Assembly (NCBI GenBank): GCA_945878405.1 | Contig: CAMCTJ010000013.1 | Span: 1-54,704, forward strand | Length of the DNA: 54,704 nucleotides | From: Bdellovibrio sp. ZAP7 | GTDB taxonomy: Bacteria > Bdellovibrionota > FAC87 > UBA2466 | Reading direction: 5' to 3' | Position numbers and translations under genes: made by a program | Part shown: one piece after another, positions 36,147 through 46,133 of the stretch | Layout of the letters: the number at the start of each line of letters is the position of its first letter | Numbering within the stretch: position 1 is the stretch's first letter | Notes under the pieces: generated by a model | Databases searched by the model: none | What the model was told of the DNA's origin: nothing | What the model saw: the letters and a program-made list of their open reading frames with translations, nothing else

Positions 36147-36965
36147 TTAAATTCCAAAAAAGAGGCTCATACCGACTATCATCGCGGCAACTAAAAGTCG
36201 GTACCACGCAAACACTTTCAATGACGACCGCCTGAGGAATTGAAGCATAAAGTGAATGCTCAGAATGCCTACGACAAAAGATGAGATGAGGCCACAGATA
36301 AGATAGGCCGTTCCCACTTCCCCGCCCAAGTGGCCAATCACTTTTCTCCCCTCTAACGCCAGAGCTCCAAACACTATCGGCAAGCTCATGAGAAATGAGA
36401 ACCGAGCAGCTGCAGGTCGAGTAAATCCCAATCGGCGAGCCATTGCCATGGTACTACCCGAGCGAGACACGCCAGGAATTAAAGCGAATGCTTGCGCCAG
36501 CCCAATTAAAAAAGCTTCTCCCGTTGTCATCTCTTCTAATGACCGGGTGGCTGGATACTGCCAATCGACCCAGAAAATGAGAAATCCTACTCCCGCTAAA
36601 AAGAAAGCGACTAAGAGGGGACTTCGAAGATGGGCTTCAATGTAATCTCCGAAAGCTAAACCCGCCACGACCGCTGGAATCGTGCCGACTACGATCCACC
36701 AAAATAGTAATCGGTCGATTTCAAACCCAACTCTTCTTTCCCACAGACTGGAAAGACCACCAATGAACACCCTCCAAAGATCTCCAAAAAAGTAAATAAT
36801 AAGAGCAAGGGCGGTCCCCAGATGTAAAAACACATCAAATGCAAGACCCGGATCCTTCCATCCAAAGAGCCAGGGAATAAGAATCAGATGGCCTGAGCTA
36901 CTAATGGGCAAGAACTCAGATAGCCCCTGGACAGCTCCCAAGACAATCGCTTCCCAAAGACTCAT
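36147..36965 (-). CDS. uppP: Undecaprenyl-diphosphate phosphatase (BacA type)
   Basis: 272 residues with about eight membrane helices. The two catalytic motifs are present: GLSEFLPISSSGHLIL (residues 14-29; E and S/H) and PGVSRSGSTM (about 164-173; R). It recycles undecaprenyl diphosphate to the monophosphate used by peptidoglycan and O-antigen-type pathways. It is the last gene of the minus-strand operon with S58 peptidase, ATP-grasp protein and ureohydrolase, and overlaps the S58 gene by ATGA. Confidence 0.96.
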   Translation of the reverse strand: MSLWEAIVLGAVQGLSEFLPISSSGHLILIPWLFGWKDPGLAFDVFLHLGTALALIIYFFGDLWRVFIGGLSSLWERRVGFEIDRLLFWWIVVGTIPAVVAGLAFGDYIEAHLRSPLLVAFFLAGVGFLIFWVDWQYPATRSLEEMTTGEAFLIGLAQAFALIPGVSRSGSTMAMARRLGFTRPAAARFSFLMSLPIVFGALALEGRKVIGHLGGEVGTAYLICGLISSFVVGILSIHFMLQFLRRSSLKVFAWYRLLVAAMIVGMSLFFGI

Positions 36966-38122
36966 TTTAATCCCCCCTTAATGGCTACCTTAAGTTTGGA
37001 ATAGCTTTCCATTAACTCCTTAACCGATTTGATGTTTAAAGAGGGAACCCGATTCCCATTTACTCCCTCCATCTCAACTGCCATCGTGAGGGAATTTAAA
37101 ATGGATTCCTCGGTCGCTTCGATCACTGCTTTGTAAGCACCATCTAAAAAAGTATCAAGAATCATACTCATTTGAATGAGTGGCCGTTGAGAGTTTCTTG
37201 GAACTGAGTTAGTCGTAGAAAACCCGATAATGATCTCTCCACTGGAATGTGCTCCATAACTGCCCACTCGACCAATTCCTAGCGCTGCACGCTTGCAGAG
37301 GCGATTAATTTGATTCGCTACCAAGGGCATGTCAGTAGCGAGAACCGTGATGATAGAGCCATAATTATTCACTCGCCTGGAATACCCACCCAAGCTTTTG
37401 GCAAAAATTTCTCCCAATGGATACCCATCAATACGTAAATGTTCCATCACGCCAAAATTACTTAAAACCAACACACCAATCGTGTATTGATGTTCCCCCA
37501 CTTTTACAATCCTACTGGAAGTACCGATCCCCGCTTTAAAATCACAACAGATCATCCCCGTTCCTGCCCCCACTGCTCCTTCTAAAGGGAGTCCTTCAGA
37601 AGCAGAATCCAGAGCACTAAATACCTGATTGGGCTTTATGTGAAGCCCGACGGCATCATTGAGAAAGCTATCGTCGCACTCGCCGACCACTGGAATAATC
37701 ACTTCAACGTTATTTTGAATGGAGGGGTGCTTGTCAGCCATCCATTTGACCACACAATCGGAAACACGCCCCACAGAAAGTGTATTGGTTAACGCAATGG
37801 GAGTTTCAATCAAACCCCACTCCATGACTTGAGTCATGCCAGAGACTTCCCCAGCACCATTTAAAACGAACCCGCCAGCAACTACTTTTTGATTGTAAGG
37901 ATCCTCATTCGGCTGAATGATGGTTACTCCGGTTCTCACTGGGCCATTTCCGGGCTTCCGACGTCCCGACCCCTCTATCAAAGTTGAGTGCCCGACCCGA
38001 ACCCCTTTTACATCGGTAATAGAGTTCAAAGGACCGGTGGGGTACTCTCCAATAGAGATTCCCAACTCTCTTGCCCGTTTCCTTGCTTTGCCCTCTTCTG
38101 AGTATTTTTCGAACAAGTTCAT
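36962..38122 (-). CDS. P1/S58 family aminopeptidase (DmpA/BapA-like)
   Basis: 386 residues from the ATG at 38122; an in-frame GTG at 38152 would add ten residues but has no ribosome binding site. N-terminal LNSITDVKGVRVGHST and PVRTGVTIIQP mark the DmpA fold. The autoproteolytic site is the Gly-Ser pair in NNYGSIITVLATDMPL, giving alpha and beta subunits with Ser256 as nucleophile; AHSSGEIIIGFST follows. Members release N-terminal D-, L- or beta-amino acids from peptides and amides. Lying five bases behind a double ATP-grasp ligase and coupled to uppP, it may process the ligase product. Confidence 0.88.
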   Translation of the reverse strand: MNLFEKYSEEGKARKRARELGISIGEYPTGPLNSITDVKGVRVGHSTLIEGSGRRKPGNGPVRTGVTIIQPNEDPYNQKVVAGGFVLNGAGEVSGMTQVMEWGLIETPIALTNTLSVGRVSDCVVKWMADKHPSIQNNVEVIIPVVGECDDSFLNDAVGLHIKPNQVFSALDSASEGLPLEGAVGAGTGMICCDFKAGIGTSSRIVKVGEHQYTIGVLVLSNFGVMEHLRIDGYPLGEIFAKSLGGYSRRVNNYGSIITVLATDMPLVANQINRLCKRAALGIGRVGSYGAHSSGEIIIGFSTTNSVPRNSQRPLIQMSMILDTFLDGAYKAVIEATEESILNSLTMAVEMEGVNGNRVPSLNIKSVKELMESYSKLKVAIKGGLK

Positions 38123-38127
38123 CGTGC

Positions 38128-40164
38128 TTACCAAGTCCTTCCGCTTCTCCACCTCTGTATGGCCGGAGTGAGAATTCGTTTAATTAAACTTTCGTAGCTC
38201 ATCCCACACCGCTCAGCCATCACTACTAAATCACTAAACCCTGGTGAGAGTCCCGGCAGTGGATTAATTTCAATGAAATAAATACCGCCTTTGCTATCGA
38301 TTCGAAAATCAATTCGAGCCACATCTCGACAGCCAAGAAGCTTAAAGACCTTTTTTGCAAAAGCAGACACTTTTCTGTCCATGTCGCGCCCTAATTGAAC
38401 GGGACACTGCAATTCAAAGATCGGATTTTGAAAGGGATTGCTCTGTTTAGCTTTAAATGTATAAACAGGAAATTTGCCAGCCGCCTCTTTGAATTTAAAT
38501 TGCATGGGTCCCAAGACTTTCAGGGTCCCCGTTCCTAAAACTCCGATCGTAAACTCTTCTCCTTCAATATATTCCTCACAAAGAACAGGAGATTTAAATT
38601 GTTGCCACAACATCTGATTTACTTGATGCAGCTCCTCTGGCGAATGAACCACCGAATTATCTCCGATTCCCTTCGAAGTACCCTCTTGGTTTGGTTTCGC
38701 AATCACGGGGAAACGAAGTCCAGGTTCTACTGGTTTTGTTCCCCCCTGGTAAAGGCGATACAAAGGAGTGAGAATCCCATCTTGGCTCAATATTTTCTTT
38801 GTGAGCGCCTTGTCGAGCGTCACTGCTAAGCAGGTTGCGTCGCTTCCCGTGTGTTCAATGTCCAATAGGTCGCAAATCGCCGGCACTTGAGCTTCTCGTG
38901 CTCTTTTTTTAGAGCCTTCTGCAATATTAAAAACGACGTCAATTTTGTGCTCTCTTAAGTTTTCTGCCAGAGTTTTTGTAGCTTCAATCGGAATCACTTT
39001 AAGTCCAAACTTCTGAATCGTATTGCAGAGACCATCTACGGTAGCTTGAGAATCAAACTCCGCCTCTTCTTCATACCCAGTGTCACCCGGGCTTTTTCTT
39101 TTCAGATTGTAAACAACGCCCACATTGGCAAAACGGGTAGTCCGCATACGCCTCGGAGTTTTCGGAGATTTTCCACCTAGTTTTAGTCGCGCAGTAGCGG
39201 CTTCTAAAATTTTTAGAATGGTTTGATCATAATTAAGCCCAAGCAATTCAGTAGCAGCGAATATCCCCGCCCCGGGTTGCAGGCTCGGCAAAGCATTGAT
39301 TTCCAAAAAATATGCTTCACCATCTGGAGTAACTCGAAAATCGGCTCGCGCAAAATCGACAACTCCCAAAGCCGGTACAATCTTTTTCATCATTGAGAGA
39401 ATCTGGGATCGCACTAAGGCATCTAGTTGAGCCGGACATCTTACGGCCACTTTTTCATCGAGTTCGTTTTTTAACGAATAGTCGTAAATCGTGCTGTCAT
39501 TGGCTCTGGGATCATTGAAAACATATTCCAGCGGCTCTAACACTCCACCATCTCCTAAACCAGCCACGTAGGGAACCGTAATATCTTTTCCGGGAATAAA
39601 TCGCTCTACAAGAATTCCTTGAGGAAATGTTTTTAAAAGCTCAGTTCCGTAGGACAAGAGCCCTTCAGCATCTTTGCAGAACGACCTCTCCGTAATTCCC
39701 TTACTAGAACCTTCATAGTTGGGTTTTACAAATGCAGGATAAACAGTTTCAGCGGCAACTAGATTCAACTCTTCTGGTGAAGTAACAAAGTAGCCTTCTG
39801 CAACGGGCACTTTCCGACTGGCAACCATTTGTTTGGTTAAAAATTTATCCAGAGTTAAAAAGCATCCATAAGGACCTGAACCCACATAGGGCAACTGAAG
39901 CTGTTCAAATACCGTCGGGCCCAGACTTTCTCGACCAATCCCAAAATACCCTTCTGCCGTATTGAAGATGATATCGGGCCGTTCAGTTGATAAACGTCCC
40001 ATCCACGAGGAAGCGGATTGCTGAAGATTCATTTCCACATCAATGACATCATGCCCACCGCTCGCAAGCGCTTTGTGAATAGCAGTAATCGTTTCTGGAG
40101 TATCGAACTCGGCTTGTTCTAAAGATTCATCTGTTTTGCGATTGAAAACAAAGGCGATTTTCAA
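38128..40164 (-). CDS. Tandem D-Ala-D-Ala-ligase-like double ATP-grasp protein
   Basis: 678 residues, twice the length of a Ddl. It is an internal duplication. The N half (1-330) has FNTAEGYFGIGRES, FVKPNYEGSSKGI (145-157) and DFARADF...YFLEINALPSLQPG (270-298). The C half (345-678) has FNIAEGSKKRAREA, VIAKPNQEGTSKGIG (487-501) and DVARIDF...YFIEINPLPGLSPG (614-642). Both halves keep the Lys, Glu, Asp and Asn residues needed for ATP and magnesium, so both could be active. It begins with TTG, with AAAGGAA eight bases upstream. Enzymes of this fold join a carboxylate to an amine; substrates are unknown. The partner genes (ureohydrolase, S58 peptidase) point to an amine- or peptide-linked product, not simply cell-wall D-Ala-D-Ala. 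Confidence 0.85.
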   Translation of the reverse strand: MKIAFVFNRKTDESLEQAEFDTPETITAIHKALASGGHDVIDVEMNLQQSASSWMGRLSTERPDIIFNTAEGYFGIGRESLGPTVFEQLQLPYVGSGPYGCFLTLDKFLTKQMVASRKVPVAEGYFVTSPEELNLVAAETVYPAFVKPNYEGSSKGITERSFCKDAEGLLSYGTELLKTFPQGILVERFIPGKDITVPYVAGLGDGGVLEPLEYVFNDPRANDSTIYDYSLKNELDEKVAVRCPAQLDALVRSQILSMMKKIVPALGVVDFARADFRVTPDGEAYFLEINALPSLQPGAGIFAATELLGLNYDQTILKILEAATARLKLGGKSPKTPRRMRTTRFANVGVVYNLKRKSPGDTGYEEEAEFDSQATVDGLCNTIQKFGLKVIPIEATKTLAENLREHKIDVVFNIAEGSKKRAREAQVPAICDLLDIEHTGSDATCLAVTLDKALTKKILSQDGILTPLYRLYQGGTKPVEPGLRFPVIAKPNQEGTSKGIGDNSVVHSPEELHQVNQMLWQQFKSPVLCEEYIEGEEFTIGVLGTGTLKVLGPMQFKFKEAAGKFPVYTFKAKQSNPFQNPIFELQCPVQLGRDMDRKVSAFAKKVFKLLGCRDVARIDFRIDSKGGIYFIEINPLPGLSPGFSDLVVMAERCGMSYESLIKRILTPAIQRWRSGRTW

Positions 40165-40180
40165 GAAAAGAGTTCCTTTC

Positions 40181-41260
40181 TTATGGGGTCCGGATCAGTT
40201 CGTGGAGATATTGAGCCCCCAACCGGCAGGTCGGCTCTTCTTTAAAATCTCTCACCCCAGACAACGGTGGTGCGACCTCAACAATATCTCCCCCAAAAAC
40301 TTGGAAGTTTTTCTTTACTTCCGAAATCAAATTTTTAACAAAACTAGACCTTAATCCCTGGGGCTCCGGTGTCCCCGTAGCACTAGCCTCGGAACTATCT
40401 GTGCCATCGATATCATTAGAAATATAAATGTGTTTCACACCCTTGTCAGAAAAATGTTGGCAGACTTGAGCGATAATCTCTGATTCTCGACCGAGTACTT
40501 CGGGAGCCCAGAATTGAAGAACGGGATGAAGCTCTGCCCATTGGGCCTTTGTTTTTGAAGAAGACCGAATTCCCACTTGAACTAAATGGTAGGGCTTTAA
40601 AAAGCGTAGCGCCTGATAAGCCCAAGTTGCAAAACAGTAATCAACCCCTAAACGACGGGTCATTAAATCTGTATGCGCATCAAAATGAAGGACTCCAAAT
40701 TCTTGCTGGAATCGCTGGTGGCAATAAACCATAGCCGGCCACGAAACACTGTGATCCCCCCCCATCAAATAAATCCGAGCTTGAGGATTCAATTCGAGGA
40801 TGGCCTTCAAAGCAGCTTCCGCAATCGACAAGGGGCTTACCGGAAGCCGCTCCGATTGTCCCGGATAGAGTTCTTTTTGAGTGGCCTCGCGTTGTTGCTC
40901 GCTCAGCATTTCATCGTGGAGAAAATGAGGGACACAAATAACATCTCCAAGATCTAAAACGCTTTTAGGAAAAGCACCAAACTGACTGAGATAAGCTTCT
41001 CTAATTCCAATCGGACCAAAATTAGCGCCTTTCATGACTCCAGCCCCTGTATCTGAGGGAATCCCTAGCAGAACCGACTCAACGCGCCGAATTTTTTGGA
41101 ATTGTTCTTCCCAAGCTTGTTGAATTTGCTTGGGGTCTACGGTCCCATATAAAGCCTGCTGGAGGCGTTGAGCATATCCTCCGCCTGTCGATGGAGTATA
41201 AATCCCTTGTCCAGGAACCCTGAGAAAAAGTCTTAACTTATCTAAAGCTGTCAAAGCCAT
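40181..41260 (-). CDS. Ureohydrolase (arginase/agmatinase/formimidoylglutamase family)
   Basis: 359 residues. The binuclear manganese site is intact: H170 in GGDHS, D194-A-H196-x-D198 in HFDAHTDL, D283 and D285 in SNDIDGTD. These enzymes hydrolyse a guanidino or formimidoyl group to release urea or formamide. The N-terminal 60 residues and the long 100-140 loop are unlike textbook arginase, so the substrate is open; agmatine, arginine or a guanidino acid are candidates. It heads the operon with a -10 box eight bases before its ATG. Confidence 0.86.
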   Translation of the reverse strand: MALTALDKLRLFLRVPGQGIYTPSTGGGYAQRLQQALYGTVDPKQIQQAWEEQFQKIRRVESVLLGIPSDTGAGVMKGANFGPIGIREAYLSQFGAFPKSVLDLGDVICVPHFLHDEMLSEQQREATQKELYPGQSERLPVSPLSIAEAALKAILELNPQARIYLMGGDHSVSWPAMVYCHQRFQQEFGVLHFDAHTDLMTRRLGVDYCFATWAYQALRFLKPYHLVQVGIRSSSKTKAQWAELHPVLQFWAPEVLGRESEIIAQVCQHFSDKGVKHIYISNDIDGTDSSEASATGTPEPQGLRSSFVKNLISEVKKNFQVFGGDIVEVAPPLSGVRDFKEEPTCRLGAQYLHELIRTP

Positions 41261-41274: not shown

Positions 41275-41341
41275 GGCGGACCAGCTGGTTTTTGCGACGA
41301 TTATGTATTGCAAAGCACAAAACTATGCTAGTTTTTCGCGC

Positions 41342-42337
41342 ATGAAACTTCTTACTTTTTTATTCAGTTTGCTTTTCGTTTCGCTAACTTTGAATGCCGC
41401 TCCAACGCCGCTTTCTGAATTAGAGAAGCAACTCAAAGAAGAAGGTTTAAAAGGGTGGGTTCACGGAGCCACCGAACCACTAAATCTCTATGTTTTTACT
41501 CACCGCGAACCTGGCGACTTCTTTTCTCATCGAGAATTTCCATTAATACCGGGAAATGAAGTAGTTTCGAGAACGCTTCAAAGCTTGAAACGTCATGACC
41601 AGGTAATCCTCAAAGGTAATTTTTTAGCTAATCAAGCGCCCATTAATCACATTTGGGTTTCTCACATCGACTTGATCAACGCTTACGAATCTCCCACCCC
41701 AGCCCCTGAGCCCTACCCCTACAAAGCAGATCTTCCTGAAGACTTGTTCTCTCATAAGGAAATTTTCGCCAAGGTCCATGCGGTAGTGAACGACGGCAAA
41801 GTGCTTGTTATTGAATATAAAGATGCCGTTGTGCCGGTGATTGTTGGAAATCCAGCCATGGCCAAGGGTCTGTACCGCAATGATAAAGTTCGATTAAAAA
41901 TCGAGGTAAGAGATTTCCCCTCAAAACCCACGCATATTTCTTTAGATCTTCAAGCCAAAGACCCGGTTCTTGTAACCGATCGGATGGTGGATTGGCATGG
42001 CAAGACTGGAGCCGTTGAAGGTCCTCTAGTTCTTTTTCCTAAAAGCCCACAAGTAAGCTTTAACGTGTTTGCAATCCAAGTGGCTGACGAAATGGGAATT
42101 TTACGTGAATTCACCCTTGTTAATTTTGAAGACTCCAATGTTTTTGAGCAAATCCGAGAAAAACTGCAAAAACTATGGGATTCAGAAACCAAAGGAATTG
42201 AAAACGGTCGCAACAAACTGATTAACCGTAACATTCAAATCAAGGCGACTGGAGTCTTCAATGTTGTCGATCCAGGACAAGCCAATCCACAGGTTTTGTT
42301 GACGGGGCCGGAATCTATTAAATTGATCACAAATTGA
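41342..42337 (+). CDS. Exported protein of unknown function
   Basis: 331 residues from the ATG at 41342, which starts a clean signal peptide (1-19, LNA-AP). The open frame extends 13 codons upstream without signal character. The mature protein looks beta-rich with no membrane helix and shows two similar modules: WVHGATEPLNLYVFTHREPGDFF (about 38-60, quoted in part) and FNVFAIQVADEMGILREF (about 240-260). It has no Cys pairs. No family is recognised. It diverges from the ureohydrolase operon. Confidence 0.65.
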   Translation: MKLLTFLFSLLFVSLTLNAAPTPLSELEKQLKEEGLKGWVHGATEPLNLYVFTHREPGDFFSHREFPLIPGNEVVSRTLQSLKRHDQVILKGNFLANQAPINHIWVSHIDLINAYESPTPAPEPYPYKADLPEDLFSHKEIFAKVHAVVNDGKVLVIEYKDAVVPVIVGNPAMAKGLYRNDKVRLKIEVRDFPSKPTHISLDLQAKDPVLVTDRMVDWHGKTGAVEGPLVLFPKSPQVSFNVFAIQVADEMGILREFTLVNFEDSNVFEQIREKLQKLWDSETKGIENGRNKLINRNIQIKATGVFNVVDPGQANPQVLLTGPESIKLITN

Positions 42338-42384: not shown

Positions 42385-43467
42385 ATGCTCCTACATTTGG
42401 AGGCCGTTACAAAATCGTTTGAAGGGTTTCAGCTTCATCCGCTTACTTTGTCCGTTGAACGTGGTGAGTTTTTCTCACTCCTAGGGCCGAGTGGTTGCGG
42501 AAAGACAACCGTTCTTCGTTTGATTGGTGGCTTTGAAACCCCTACTTCTGGCCGAGTTATTTTGAATGATCAAGATATTACTCGTCTGCCTCCTCATAAA
42601 CGAAACGTTCACACCGTATTTCAGCGCTACGCCTTATTTCCCCACCTCACCGTGGCTGAAAATGTAGCTTTTCCCCTTCATCTAAAGAAACTTCCCTCGG
42701 CTGAGATTTCCGAGCGGGTAAAGGAGAGCCTGAAACTAGTAGAAATTGAGGATCTCCAGGACAGAAGAACTCATCAAATCAGCGGGGGGCAAGCTCAAAG
42801 AACTGCTTTGGCTCGAGCCTTGGTCGCAAAACCAGAACTGGTCCTTTTAGATGAACCTCTTTCAGCTCTGGATCCGGAGCTTCGGATGAAGATGAGAGAA
42901 GAGCTCAAAACGATTTGCAAAAAAGTCGGGATCACTTTTTTATTGGTCACCCACGATCAAGAAGAAGCCCTTCAGTTATCCGATAGAATTGCCGTTTTTA
43001 AATCTGGCCAATGCCTTCAAGTGGGAACTCCCAAGACTATTTATGAAGACCCAAGCGATACTTTCGTGGCTCGGTTTATTGGGGCGGTGAATGAGATCCC
43101 GGGAGATATTCAAGGGGAAGCCTCCCCTGAAACGGGCGAGATCGTCCTATCTTCACCTTTGGGGATGTTCAAACTGAAAAAAAATGGCCACTCCCTCCCT
43201 AAACAAGTTTCCGTAATCCTACGTCCAGAAAAAATGCGGCTTCTGAGAAGTAAATCAACAACACAGGAAAACTTAATGGAGGGGGAAATTCAGGATCTGA
43301 TTTACCTAGGTTCACGCACTGAATATGCCGTTAAGATTGGTCCGTCGACATTTAAAGTGTTTGAGCAAGAACTCGAAAGATTGAAAAAACGAAGGCTTAA
43401 CGTTGGCGATCGTGTCTTTTTGGCATGGCGGGGCGACGATGCGATAGTTTTGCCTCAATCCACATGA
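42385..43467 (+). CDS. potA: Spermidine/putrescine ABC transporter ATP-binding protein
   Basis: 360 residues. Walker A GPSGCGKTTV, Q-loop FQRYALFPHL, ABC signature SGGQAQRTALARAL and Walker B LVLLDEPLSALD, then H-loop VTHD. The C-terminal TOBE_2 domain (about 275-355) completes the PotA architecture. It powers polyamine uptake with PotB and PotC. The stop overlaps the potB start as ATGA. Confidence 0.94.
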   Translation: MLLHLEAVTKSFEGFQLHPLTLSVERGEFFSLLGPSGCGKTTVLRLIGGFETPTSGRVILNDQDITRLPPHKRNVHTVFQRYALFPHLTVAENVAFPLHLKKLPSAEISERVKESLKLVEIEDLQDRRTHQISGGQAQRTALARALVAKPELVLLDEPLSALDPELRMKMREELKTICKKVGITFLLVTHDQEEALQLSDRIAVFKSGQCLQVGTPKTIYEDPSDTFVARFIGAVNEIPGDIQGEASPETGEIVLSSPLGMFKLKKNGHSLPKQVSVILRPEKMRLLRSKSTTQENLMEGEIQDLIYLGSRTEYAVKIGPSTFKVFEQELERLKKRRLNVGDRVFLAWRGDDAIVLPQST

Positions 43468-44327
43468 AAAACACCCCTGTCATTCCTTCAAGCGCCTGGA
43501 TTTTTTTAATCTGGCTTATTTTGATGACCTTACTTCCTTTTTCTCTCATTTTGGGAATGAGCTTCTTGCAGAGAACGGACCTGGGAAACATTGTTTTTGC
43601 GTTTAGCTTAAAAAACTATCAACAACTTCTCGACTGGATTTACTTTAAAGTACTTTTAAAAACACTTTGGTTGGCTTTTGGGGCCACCCTTTCCTGTTTG
43701 ATGATCGGTTTTCCAGTAGCCTATTTTCTGGCGAGAGTTCAGGGACCTCTCAAAAGCATCGGCTTGATTTTACTTTTCATTCCGTTTTGGACCAATTTCA
43801 TTTTACGAATTTATGGAATTGTATCTTTATTTGGGTCCAATGGGCTCTTTAACCAGATTTTAGCCACTTTAGGAGCCCCCGAAGTATCGATTCTCTATAC
43901 TCGTTTAGGGGTCTACATAGGCTTGGTTTACAATTATTTGCCCTTTCTGGTTGTTCCGATTTATTCCTCATTAGAAAAGCTGGACCCATTTTTACGAGAA
44001 GCTGCTTCGGATTTAGGCGCCACCCGTTTTCAGACTTTTAGGAAAGTAATCCTACCCAATATTAAGGAAGGGGTTTTTATTGGAAGTCTCTTTGTTTTTA
44101 TCCCGATGTTAGGGGAATACGTTATTCCGGACCTTCTTGGAGGAGCTAAAGAAGCTTTCTTGGGAAAGGTGATGGTCGAACAATTCTTTATCTTGCAGGA
44201 TTGGCCCTTGGGATCGGCTATCGCAACCGTTCTCTCAGTTCTTCTTTTAGGTGCCCTTTGGCTTCAAAATCGATGGACATCAAAAAATCAACAGCCCCAA
44301 TCACAGGAGTTGAGCCATGCGATTTAA
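43464..44327 (+). CDS. potB: Polyamine ABC transporter permease PotB
   Basis: 287 residues from the ATG at 43464. Six membrane helices and the EAA loop (REAASDLGATRFQTFRKVILPNI) typical of type I permeases (quoted to show the EAA-x3-G-A signature: EAASDLGA). The ATGA overlap with potA fixes the start. It overlaps potC by 11 bases. Confidence 0.92.
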   Translation: MKNTPVIPSSAWIFLIWLILMTLLPFSLILGMSFLQRTDLGNIVFAFSLKNYQQLLDWIYFKVLLKTLWLAFGATLSCLMIGFPVAYFLARVQGPLKSIGLILLFIPFWTNFILRIYGIVSLFGSNGLFNQILATLGAPEVSILYTRLGVYIGLVYNYLPFLVVPIYSSLEKLDPFLREAASDLGATRFQTFRKVILPNIKEGVFIGSLFVFIPMLGEYVIPDLLGGAKEAFLGKVMVEQFFILQDWPLGSAIATVLSVLLLGALWLQNRWTSKNQQPQSQELSHAI

Positions 44328-45102
44328 AAATCCTTTAGTTACTTTCCTGTTTTGGATGGCAATTACCCTGCTTTATTTGCCGCTCCTTTATTTGATTTTT
44401 CAGGCGTTTCTAGAAAATCCAAATGATTGGAGAAGCGGATTTACCTTGAAATGGCTAATCAAACTCTTTGATAGCCCAGCCCTTTGGGGGCCGCTATTGA
44501 ATAGCGTGGAGATAGGCGTGCTCTCTGCAACTCTGGCCGTTTCATTAGGAACACTTGGCGCTGTTGGGTTAAGCCGGATTTCAGGCCTTCTTCCCCCTGT
44601 CATTCAAACCCTGATTATTTTACCGATCCTAGTCCCTGAGGTAATTACGGGACTTTCTCTTCTTTTATTCTTCTTACTTTGCCGCTTTGATTTGGGGTTC
44701 CTAACAGTTGTGGTAGCGCATGCGAGTTTCAGCGCTAGTTTTGTGTACTTTATCATGGTGGAACAATTGCGAAAGCTCGACCCCCAAATGAGTGAAGCAG
44801 CCATGGACTTAGGGGCCAAGCCAACAGAAGTGTTTTGGAAAGTGACCCTTCCGAACATCATTCCCGGTGTCATGGGGGCATGGTTACTGGCCTTTACCCT
44901 TTCATTTGATGACTTTTTGATCTCTTTCTTCACAAGTGGTGCGGGCCTTACCACTTTGCCTTTGAAGATTTATTCTTTAATGAGAATTGGTGTTTCCCCA
45001 GAATTAAATGGCCTTTCTTTCATTATGATTTGTATCTCAACCTTTTTAGTGCTTATGTTGGTATCTAAGGAACAAAGTAGAAAATGGGTACTCAGAGGAT
45101 AG
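44317..45102 (+). CDS. potC: Polyamine ABC transporter permease PotC
   Basis: 261 residues with six membrane helices. The EAA loop is EAAMDLGAKPTEVFWKV, and SFDDFLISFF near residue 205 is a typical PotC segment. It pairs with PotB in the inner membrane. It overlaps potD by 19 bases. Confidence 0.92.
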   Translation: MRFKNPLVTFLFWMAITLLYLPLLYLIFQAFLENPNDWRSGFTLKWLIKLFDSPALWGPLLNSVEIGVLSATLAVSLGTLGAVGLSRISGLLPPVIQTLIILPILVPEVITGLSLLLFFLLCRFDLGFLTVVVAHASFSASFVYFIMVEQLRKLDPQMSEAAMDLGAKPTEVFWKVTLPNIIPGVMGAWLLAFTLSFDDFLISFFTSGAGLTTLPLKIYSLMRIGVSPELNGLSFIMICISTFLVLMLVSKEQSRKWVLRG

Positions 45103-46133
45103 TCTCTCTCTTTTTAGCTCTTGTCTGCATTATCGGTGGAATTATTTTCCTCCGAAGCAAGGTTTCTCAAACAAATACACTGCGGGTTTGTACTTGGAGC
45201 AATTATTTTCCTGACAAATCGCTTGAAGAGTTCACTGCCAAAACGGGAATCAGGGTAGAGCTTACTTATATTTCTAGTAATGAAGAGCTTTTTGCAAAAC
45301 TAAAAGCAGGAGCAACTGGTTTCGATATTATTCAACCCTCAGATTACATTACTAGGCGCCTGATTGCGCTTTCTATGCTGGCTCCGTTAGAACCGCGCCT
45401 TCTTACCAATCTCCACCATATCGATCCGTATTTTTTTAAGCTTTCTTACGATCCAAACTTAAAATATTCGGTCCCTTTTACTTTTGGTACTACCGGTATC
45501 GCAGTAAACACATCAAAAGTGCCGGTGGATACTCAAGATATTTCCTGGTCTTTTTTATTTGATTCAAAAGATCCTAAACATACAAGCCTCCTAGATGACA
45601 TGCGGGAGGTCTTTGCCGCGGTTCTTTTTTTGAAGGGGATTTCCCCTAACACACGAGATTTAGCTTCCTTAGAAGATTCAAAAGGAACTATTTCCCAAGC
45701 GAAGAATCGGGTGTTGATGTTTACTTCCGAACCCAAGGCCCTTCTTTTAAAAGGAGAGCTGTCGATTTCTCACATGTATTCGGTGGATGCGATACAGGCA
45801 GCTCGTGAAAACCCAAATATCAAGTTTTTTATCCCTCGCGAGGGCGGGATTATTTGGACGGATAACTTTGCCATTCCGGCTACAAGCACTCGAATTGAGG
45901 AAGCCCATCAGTTTATAAACTTTTTTCTGGAACCAGAGCAAAACTTGAAAATTGTTGAGGAGAACTGGCTTGCAACACCTAACAAGACTGCGAAGGCAAT
46001 GCTTCCCGAGTCCATTCAGAAGAATCCCCAGCTGTATCCACCAGCCGAAGTGGTTAAGACCCTTTCCTTCTTGGAAGAATTGGGAGAGACGCTACCACGA
46101 ATCAGCCGGATGTGGACCGAGTTAAAAAGCTAA
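45084..46133 (+). CDS. potD: Polyamine-binding periplasmic protein PotD
   Basis: 349 residues. The binding-protein fold begins at RVCTWSNYFPDKSLEEF, with FDIIQPSDYITRRL and the later WTDNFAIPA typical of PotD/PotF; the W, D and E residues lining the polyamine site appear to be kept. The N-terminus (residues 5-23) is hydrophobic but has neither a standard cleavage site nor a convincing lipobox (LALVC), so the protein may stay anchored by this helix. It is the last gene of potABCD. Confidence 0.9.
   Translation: MGTQRIVSLFLALVCIIGGIIFLRSKVSQTNTLRVCTWSNYFPDKSLEEFTAKTGIRVELTYISSNEELFAKLKAGATGFDIIQPSDYITRRLIALSMLAPLEPRLLTNLHHIDPYFFKLSYDPNLKYSVPFTFGTTGIAVNTSKVPVDTQDISWSFLFDSKDPKHTSLLDDMREVFAAVLFLKGISPNTRDLASLEDSKGTISQAKNRVLMFTSEPKALLLKGELSISHMYSVDAIQAARENPNIKFFIPREGGIIWTDNFAIPATSTRIEEAHQFINFFLEPEQNLKIVEENWLATPNKTAKAMLPESIQKNPQLYPPAEVVKTLSFLEELGETLPRISRMWTELKS

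Follow-up and report, generated by a model that had tools for sequence, protein, structure and literature searches.

A tandem Ddl-like ATP-grasp ligase paired with an S58 aminopeptidase in Bdellovibrio-like bacteria

An ATP-grasp ligase composed of two Ddl-like units (LIG) and a self-cleaving aminopeptidase of the DmpA/BapA type (S58) constitute an old, conserved, and uncharacterized pair in Bdellovibrio-like bacteria. The pair was located in a 54,704-nucleotide stretch of DNA from Bdellovibrio sp. ZAP7 (contig CAMCTJ010000013.1), here called the window, where it is part of a cluster of four genes arranged in the order UREO, LIG, S58, and UppP, all on the minus strand between positions 36147 and 41260 (Table 1). 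The gene calls confirmed the tight packing described in the original prediction, with intergenic gaps of 16, 5, and -4 bases. Pfam and NCBIfam searches with the four genes returned Arginase, two stretches of Dala_Dala_lig_C, Peptidase_S58, and BacA/UppP, respectively, and UppP scored 230.1 bits against TIGR00753, exceeding the cut-off of 217.5. The TTG start codon of LIG aligns with the ATG of its homologues, and a GTG at position 38152 is a possible alternative start for S58. One gene (41303-42337) is situated between the cluster and potABCD. Promoter and terminator scans gave matches at chance level, and the Rfam search of the window returned zero family matches.

Table 1. Positions of the features discussed in the text (window coordinates unless a locus is named)
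Feature	Position	Strand	Details
UREO, ureohydrolase-family enzyme	41260-40181	-	359 aa; PF00491 5.2e-47
LIG, tandem D-Ala-D-Ala-ligase-like ATP-grasp ligase	40164-38128	-	678 aa, TTG start; PF07478 twice
LIG N-half, aa 1-330	39175..40164	-	alignment, tree
LIG C-half, aa 346-674	38143..39129	-	alignment, tree
S58, DmpA/BapA-type self-cleaving aminopeptidase	38122-36962	-	386 aa from ATG; PF03576 5.5e-110
S58 predicted autocleavage bond Gly255-Ser256 (YG/SIITVLATD)	37355..37360	-	Ser256 is the nucleophile; alignment
UppP, undecaprenyl-diphosphate phosphatase	36965-36147	-	272 aa; PF02673 1.8e-79; TIGR00753
potABCD-type polyamine ABC transporter	42385-46133	+	ORFs; diverges from cluster
S58, second-type Ddl-like ligase, and GNAT, three-gene set	L106:7202-9954; L107:7336-10068		two f9 genomes

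Distribution of the LIG-S58 pair

LIG was found in all 15 genomes of the window's class and in 36 of the 291 genomes of the phylum, which record titles identify as Bdellovibrionota; the named relatives carrying it are Bdellovibrionales and 'Deltaproteobacteria' metagenome assemblies. A high-scoring S58 (>300 bits) is present in 34 of the 36 genomes with LIG versus 5 of the 255 without it (291 genomes, P = 1e-36, shared ancestry ignored), and this difference persists if the window's class is excluded (19/21 versus 5/255, P = 8e-23, again ignoring shared ancestry). One of the five genomes counted as having S58 without LIG (G116) carries an end fragment of LIG beside S58 at a contig edge. At nearly all loci examined, LIG is immediately followed by S58 in the same orientation, and the two genes often overlap by a few bases; this adjacency extends over at least seven families (f1, f2, f7, f8, f9, f17, and f25), in which the other neighbors are unrelated. 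Pairwise divergences of LIG and S58 are correlated as well (Spearman 0.82 over 20 loci). The original prediction proposed a neighborhood search for the trio of UREO, LIG, and S58: the LIG-S58 part proved to be conserved, whereas the trio is not conserved outside one family.

A few genomes deviate from this arrangement. LIG and S58 are on separate contigs in G019, and no S58 was found in G198, which possesses LIG. In two f9 genomes, G128 and G119, LIG has no adjacent S58 (for G119, this is where the contig with LIG stops); S58 is located elsewhere and is followed by a different, single-unit Ddl-like ATP-grasp gene, 24 to 25% identical to LIG, and by a GNAT acetyltransferase gene (Table 1). These sets imply that the association of S58 with an ATP-grasp enzyme arose or re-formed more than once.

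Beyond the phylum, no S58 was found in a Bacillota genome encoding a single-unit LIG relative, and the viral contigs searched contained zero LIG relatives. Plasmid-borne relatives of LIG (rhizobia, Thioflavicoccus, and Peptoclostridium) are single-unit proteins of approximately 24 to 31% identity with no adjoining S58 in four annotated records, and plasmid-borne S58 homologues (39 to 43% identity) showed no adjoining ATP-grasp gene in four records. On the Thioflavicoccus plasmid (L078:4734-10215), the single-unit relative occurs together with SbnA, an ornithine cyclodeaminase homologue, a diaminobutyrate transaminase, and a KamA-type radical SAM protein, a set possibly serving a diaminopropionate-containing peptide. 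On a plasmid of Pseudorhizobium flavum (L160:934-7458), an S58 gene lies between a divergent polyamine-type ABC transporter and a convergent glutamine synthetase gene, the latter adjoining an aminotransferase gene; this is a further case of S58 beside an amide ligase. The original prediction knew of no characterized pathway with the four-gene set, and the LIG-S58 association likewise appears to be undescribed: the literature searched, with most subscription journals outside it, yielded no published account of the pair, which is weak evidence of novelty.

Catalytic sites and origin of the two enzymes

LIG is a head-to-tail duplication with a PF07478 domain in each half, assigned by NCBIfam to the Ddl subfamily. 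For residue comparison, 24 full tandem proteins were aligned with DdlB of E. coli, whose numbering is used here. Residues K97, K144, E148, K215, R255, D257, E270, and N272, which in DdlB bind ATP/Mg or stabilize the acyl phosphate, are conserved without exception in the 24 N-halves and the 24 C-halves. The original prediction of a duplicated ligase with both active sites apparently intact is thus borne out, with no loss of catalytic residues on alignment in either half.

The acceptor pockets present a different picture. Of the D-Ala-binding set E15, S150, Y216, and S281, Y216 is missing from all 48 halves, being replaced by N or Q in the N-halves and mostly by Q or L in the C-halves; E15 is unconserved, in a region where the alignment is loose, and position 150 is occupied by S or T. 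H63 is replaced by E and M259 by R in all halves. Specifically, the N-halves have S in place of G276 and mostly A in place of S281, whereas the C-halves retain both G276 and S281 but carry D in place of L282. In the window's LIG, the N-half features N, S, and A at positions 216, 276, and 281, and the C-half has Q at 216, D at 282, and the retained S281. With the ATP/Mg residues kept and the acceptor pockets differing, both halves look enzymatically active and different in substrate site, and by the residues tested neither resembles a typical D-Ala-D-Ala ligase. A separate Ddl-type gene encoding 361 residues is present in the genome (C11:54314-55090).

The AlphaFold model of LIG has a pLDDT of 87.9 and is good for each unit, whereas a pTM of 0.53 renders the arrangement of the halves relative to one another unreliable. 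The best PDB matches of this model in Foldseek, each covering one unit, are all Ddl proteins (DdlA and DdlB) with DdlB on top; consistently, an ATP-grasp fold with the Ddl C-terminal domain is indicated for both halves. Carbamoyl-phosphate synthetase (CarB) was considered as an identity for LIG and rejected, since the best families are all Ddl and the alignments with carbamoyl-phosphate synthetases show approximately 10% identity and rmsd values above 20.

Maximum-likelihood analysis placed the 20 N-halves in a single clade with a support of 100/100 and the C-halves in two supported groups that match two subgroups of the N-halves. Consequently, the duplication is older than the spread of the tandem gene within the phylum. 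A single-unit ligase of family f17 is placed among the C-halves, which suggests that the N-half was lost there, and in G072 (L066) a stand-alone C-half-like ligase adjoins S58. In G013, LIG (C91:2662-4688; L027, L029) is split into two overlapping frames near residue 205, owing to a frameshift or an assembly error. Overall, LIG clearly exemplifies the duplication of a Ddl-type enzyme with retention of both catalytic sites, and its two acceptor pockets differ.

S58 proteins are self-cleaving at a Gly-Ser bond, and the N-terminal residues on which they act include D- and β-amino acids. The protein encoded in the window covers positions 1 to 306 of the 307 in the PF03576 profile (368 bits), its relatives in the PDB include 2drh (2.5e-88) and 1b65 (1e-69), and Gly255-Ser256 is invariant in the 19 S58 proteins aligned. 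Autocleavage at the Gly-Ser bond was demonstrated for a DmpA-type enzyme (PMC9570944). Such enzymes can also make carnosine from an activated ester (PMC9570944), and the β-aminopeptidases share a fold grouping with ornithine acyltransferases (PMC9140057), so that S58 could work by aminolysis and extend a product begun by LIG rather than hydrolyze it. There is a slim chance of this, as the known synthetic activity requires tens of millimolar of an activated ester, and with a partner driven by ATP there is no need for a transferase.

UREO, UppP, and other neighbors

UREO shares with agmatinase, arginase, and other ureohydrolases all six metal ligands (H170, D194, H196, D198, D283, and D285, as aligned with E. 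coli SpeB and orthologues). It differs from agmatinase and arginase in its N-terminal extension, in the spread of its subfamily over the phylum, and in its agmatinase score (TIGR01230), which at 100.8 bits falls below the cut-off of 174.3, so that an assignment as agmatinase was rejected. The subfamily (E < 1e-50) occurs in 104 of the 291 genomes, mostly without LIG, and outside the window's class it is not associated with LIG (6/21 genomes with LIG versus 86/255 others, P = 0.81). Three f1 genomes with fragmented assemblies (G003, G005, and G006) have kept LIG, and searches of them yielded no UREO orthologue. The surroundings of UREO vary as well, comprising lysA and lysC (aspartokinase) in f4 (L140:3761-7591, L142) and a 2-hydroxyacid dehydrogenase gene and aat in f9; lysA, lysC, and aat were named by sequence, with no profile.

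In the sister family f2 (L120), UppP comes immediately after UREO, with LIG-S58 placed on a different contig; the window's cluster is therefore the LIG-S58 pair nested within a UREO-UppP pair. According to the simplest history, based on one f2 genome, LIG-S58 came between the members of the latter pair in the f1 ancestor, or the two pairs separated in f2. The four genes were not co-inherited beyond one family. UREO and UppP are neighbors outside the core of the module, and the four genes as one ancient pathway are not supported.

In family f1, potABCD diverges from the cluster wherever contigs reach that far, and it was not seen at the other LIG loci. Searches of the window's genome for the biosynthetic arginine decarboxylase domain (PF17810) and for spermidine synthase (PF01564) found neither, which weakens a local route to agmatine or spermidine and is still compatible with uptake; with its complete potABCD-type transporter, the genome possibly depends on imported polyamines. 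A pathway along the lines of the original prediction would have UREO supply an amine or amino acid for ligation to a carboxylate by LIG, with S58 and UppP acting at later steps and potABCD taking up the polyamine. The tight packing in the same orientation in most of f1 speaks for such a pathway, yet the reading appears very improbable: UREO is widespread without LIG and not associated with it outside the class, has lineage-dependent surroundings, and was not found in the three fragmented f1 assemblies, and a supply of LIG by UREO is not supported; UppP goes with UREO in f2; and potABCD is a neighbor in one family. Of the proposed synthesis and turnover of a small amide, the double ligase coupled to S58 and their conserved association hold, whereas the four-gene pathway does not.

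UppP also bears on a role in the cell wall, in which LIG would make a D-amino-acid dipeptide as a second Ddl-like activity and S58 would be its D-aminopeptidase, in parallel to VanA/VanX and serving peptidoglycan together with UppP. The nearest known folds and families of LIG are Ddl and VanA, the PDB labels relatives of S58 as D-aminopeptidase, and S58 adjoins UppP in most of f1. We nevertheless regard this role as unlikely, given the loss of Y216 and other acceptor-pocket positions, the Arg at M259 in 48 of 48 halves, the separate Ddl in the genome, and the restriction of the UppP adjacency to f1.

Two genomes from different families (G033 and G061; L052:11267-12571 and L053:5779-7038) carry a carboxypeptidase gene of the MATCAP family (PF08014) directly adjacent to LIG-S58, and MATCAP is mildly enriched in genomes with LIG (22/36 versus 72/255). 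LIG might accordingly add amino acids to the end or a side chain of a peptide or protein, to be trimmed by S58, comparable to tubulin-tyrosine ligase and its carboxypeptidase. This seems quite unlikely: no MATCAP was found in the window's own genus, MATCAP is enriched only weakly if the class is excluded (P = 0.03), and Ddl-type enzymes use free small molecules.

Proposed function and comparison with known systems

Co-inherited and adjacent, and with no evident signal sequence at either N terminus, LIG and S58 are best read as partners that make and then break or trim a product. On balance, we think it somewhat probable that they form a functional two-gene module of this kind for a small peptide or amide. 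ATP-grasp ligases of this class form an acyl phosphate and couple it to an amine. Each half of LIG would bind ATP and Mg and phosphorylate a carboxylate, and the amine would then attack the acyl phosphate; one polypeptide could thereby link small amino-acid-like substrates, probably other than D-Ala plus D-Ala, through one or two amide bonds. The S58 proenzyme, probably cytosolic, would cleave itself at Gly255-Ser256, and the mature enzyme would remove the N-terminal residue of the LIG product in degradation or maturation. UREO and UppP would merely flank the module in f1, with potABCD as a further neighbor. The ligase and peptidase chemistry proposed originally is reasonable in this light, although the reactions of the pair are predicted from sequence. 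A more specific version is doubtful: the pair as the core of an undescribed, lineage-typical pathway, in which the ligase would use its two sites consecutively to assemble a peptide or amide of three components and the dedicated S58 would release the building blocks, for example, from a store or solute.

S58 aminopeptidases are studied biocatalysts whose natural substrates, to our knowledge, are mostly unknown; a co-inherited, dedicated ligase offers a direct route to one of them via the product of LIG. Full-length homology and the Gly-Ser autocleavage site link S58 to DmpA, BapA, and PH0078, from which it differs by its tie to a dedicated ATP-grasp ligase, absent from the literature searched. 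LIG resembles the Ddl/VanA family in fold, ATP-grasp architecture, and all ATP/Mg catalytic residues tested, but two units are fused, the acceptor pocket is changed differently in each half, the genome keeps a separate Ddl, and within this phylum LIG seldom occurs without S58 as its partner. With CarB it shares a tandem ATP-grasp duplication with two active sites in one chain, whereas its units are Ddl-like. As a pair, LIG-S58 is similar to CphA/CphB of cyanophycin metabolism, VanA/VanX, and TTL/MATCAP, in each of which an ATP-dependent ligase has a counterpart that hydrolyzes its product, and is distinguished from all three by the different fold of its hydrolase.
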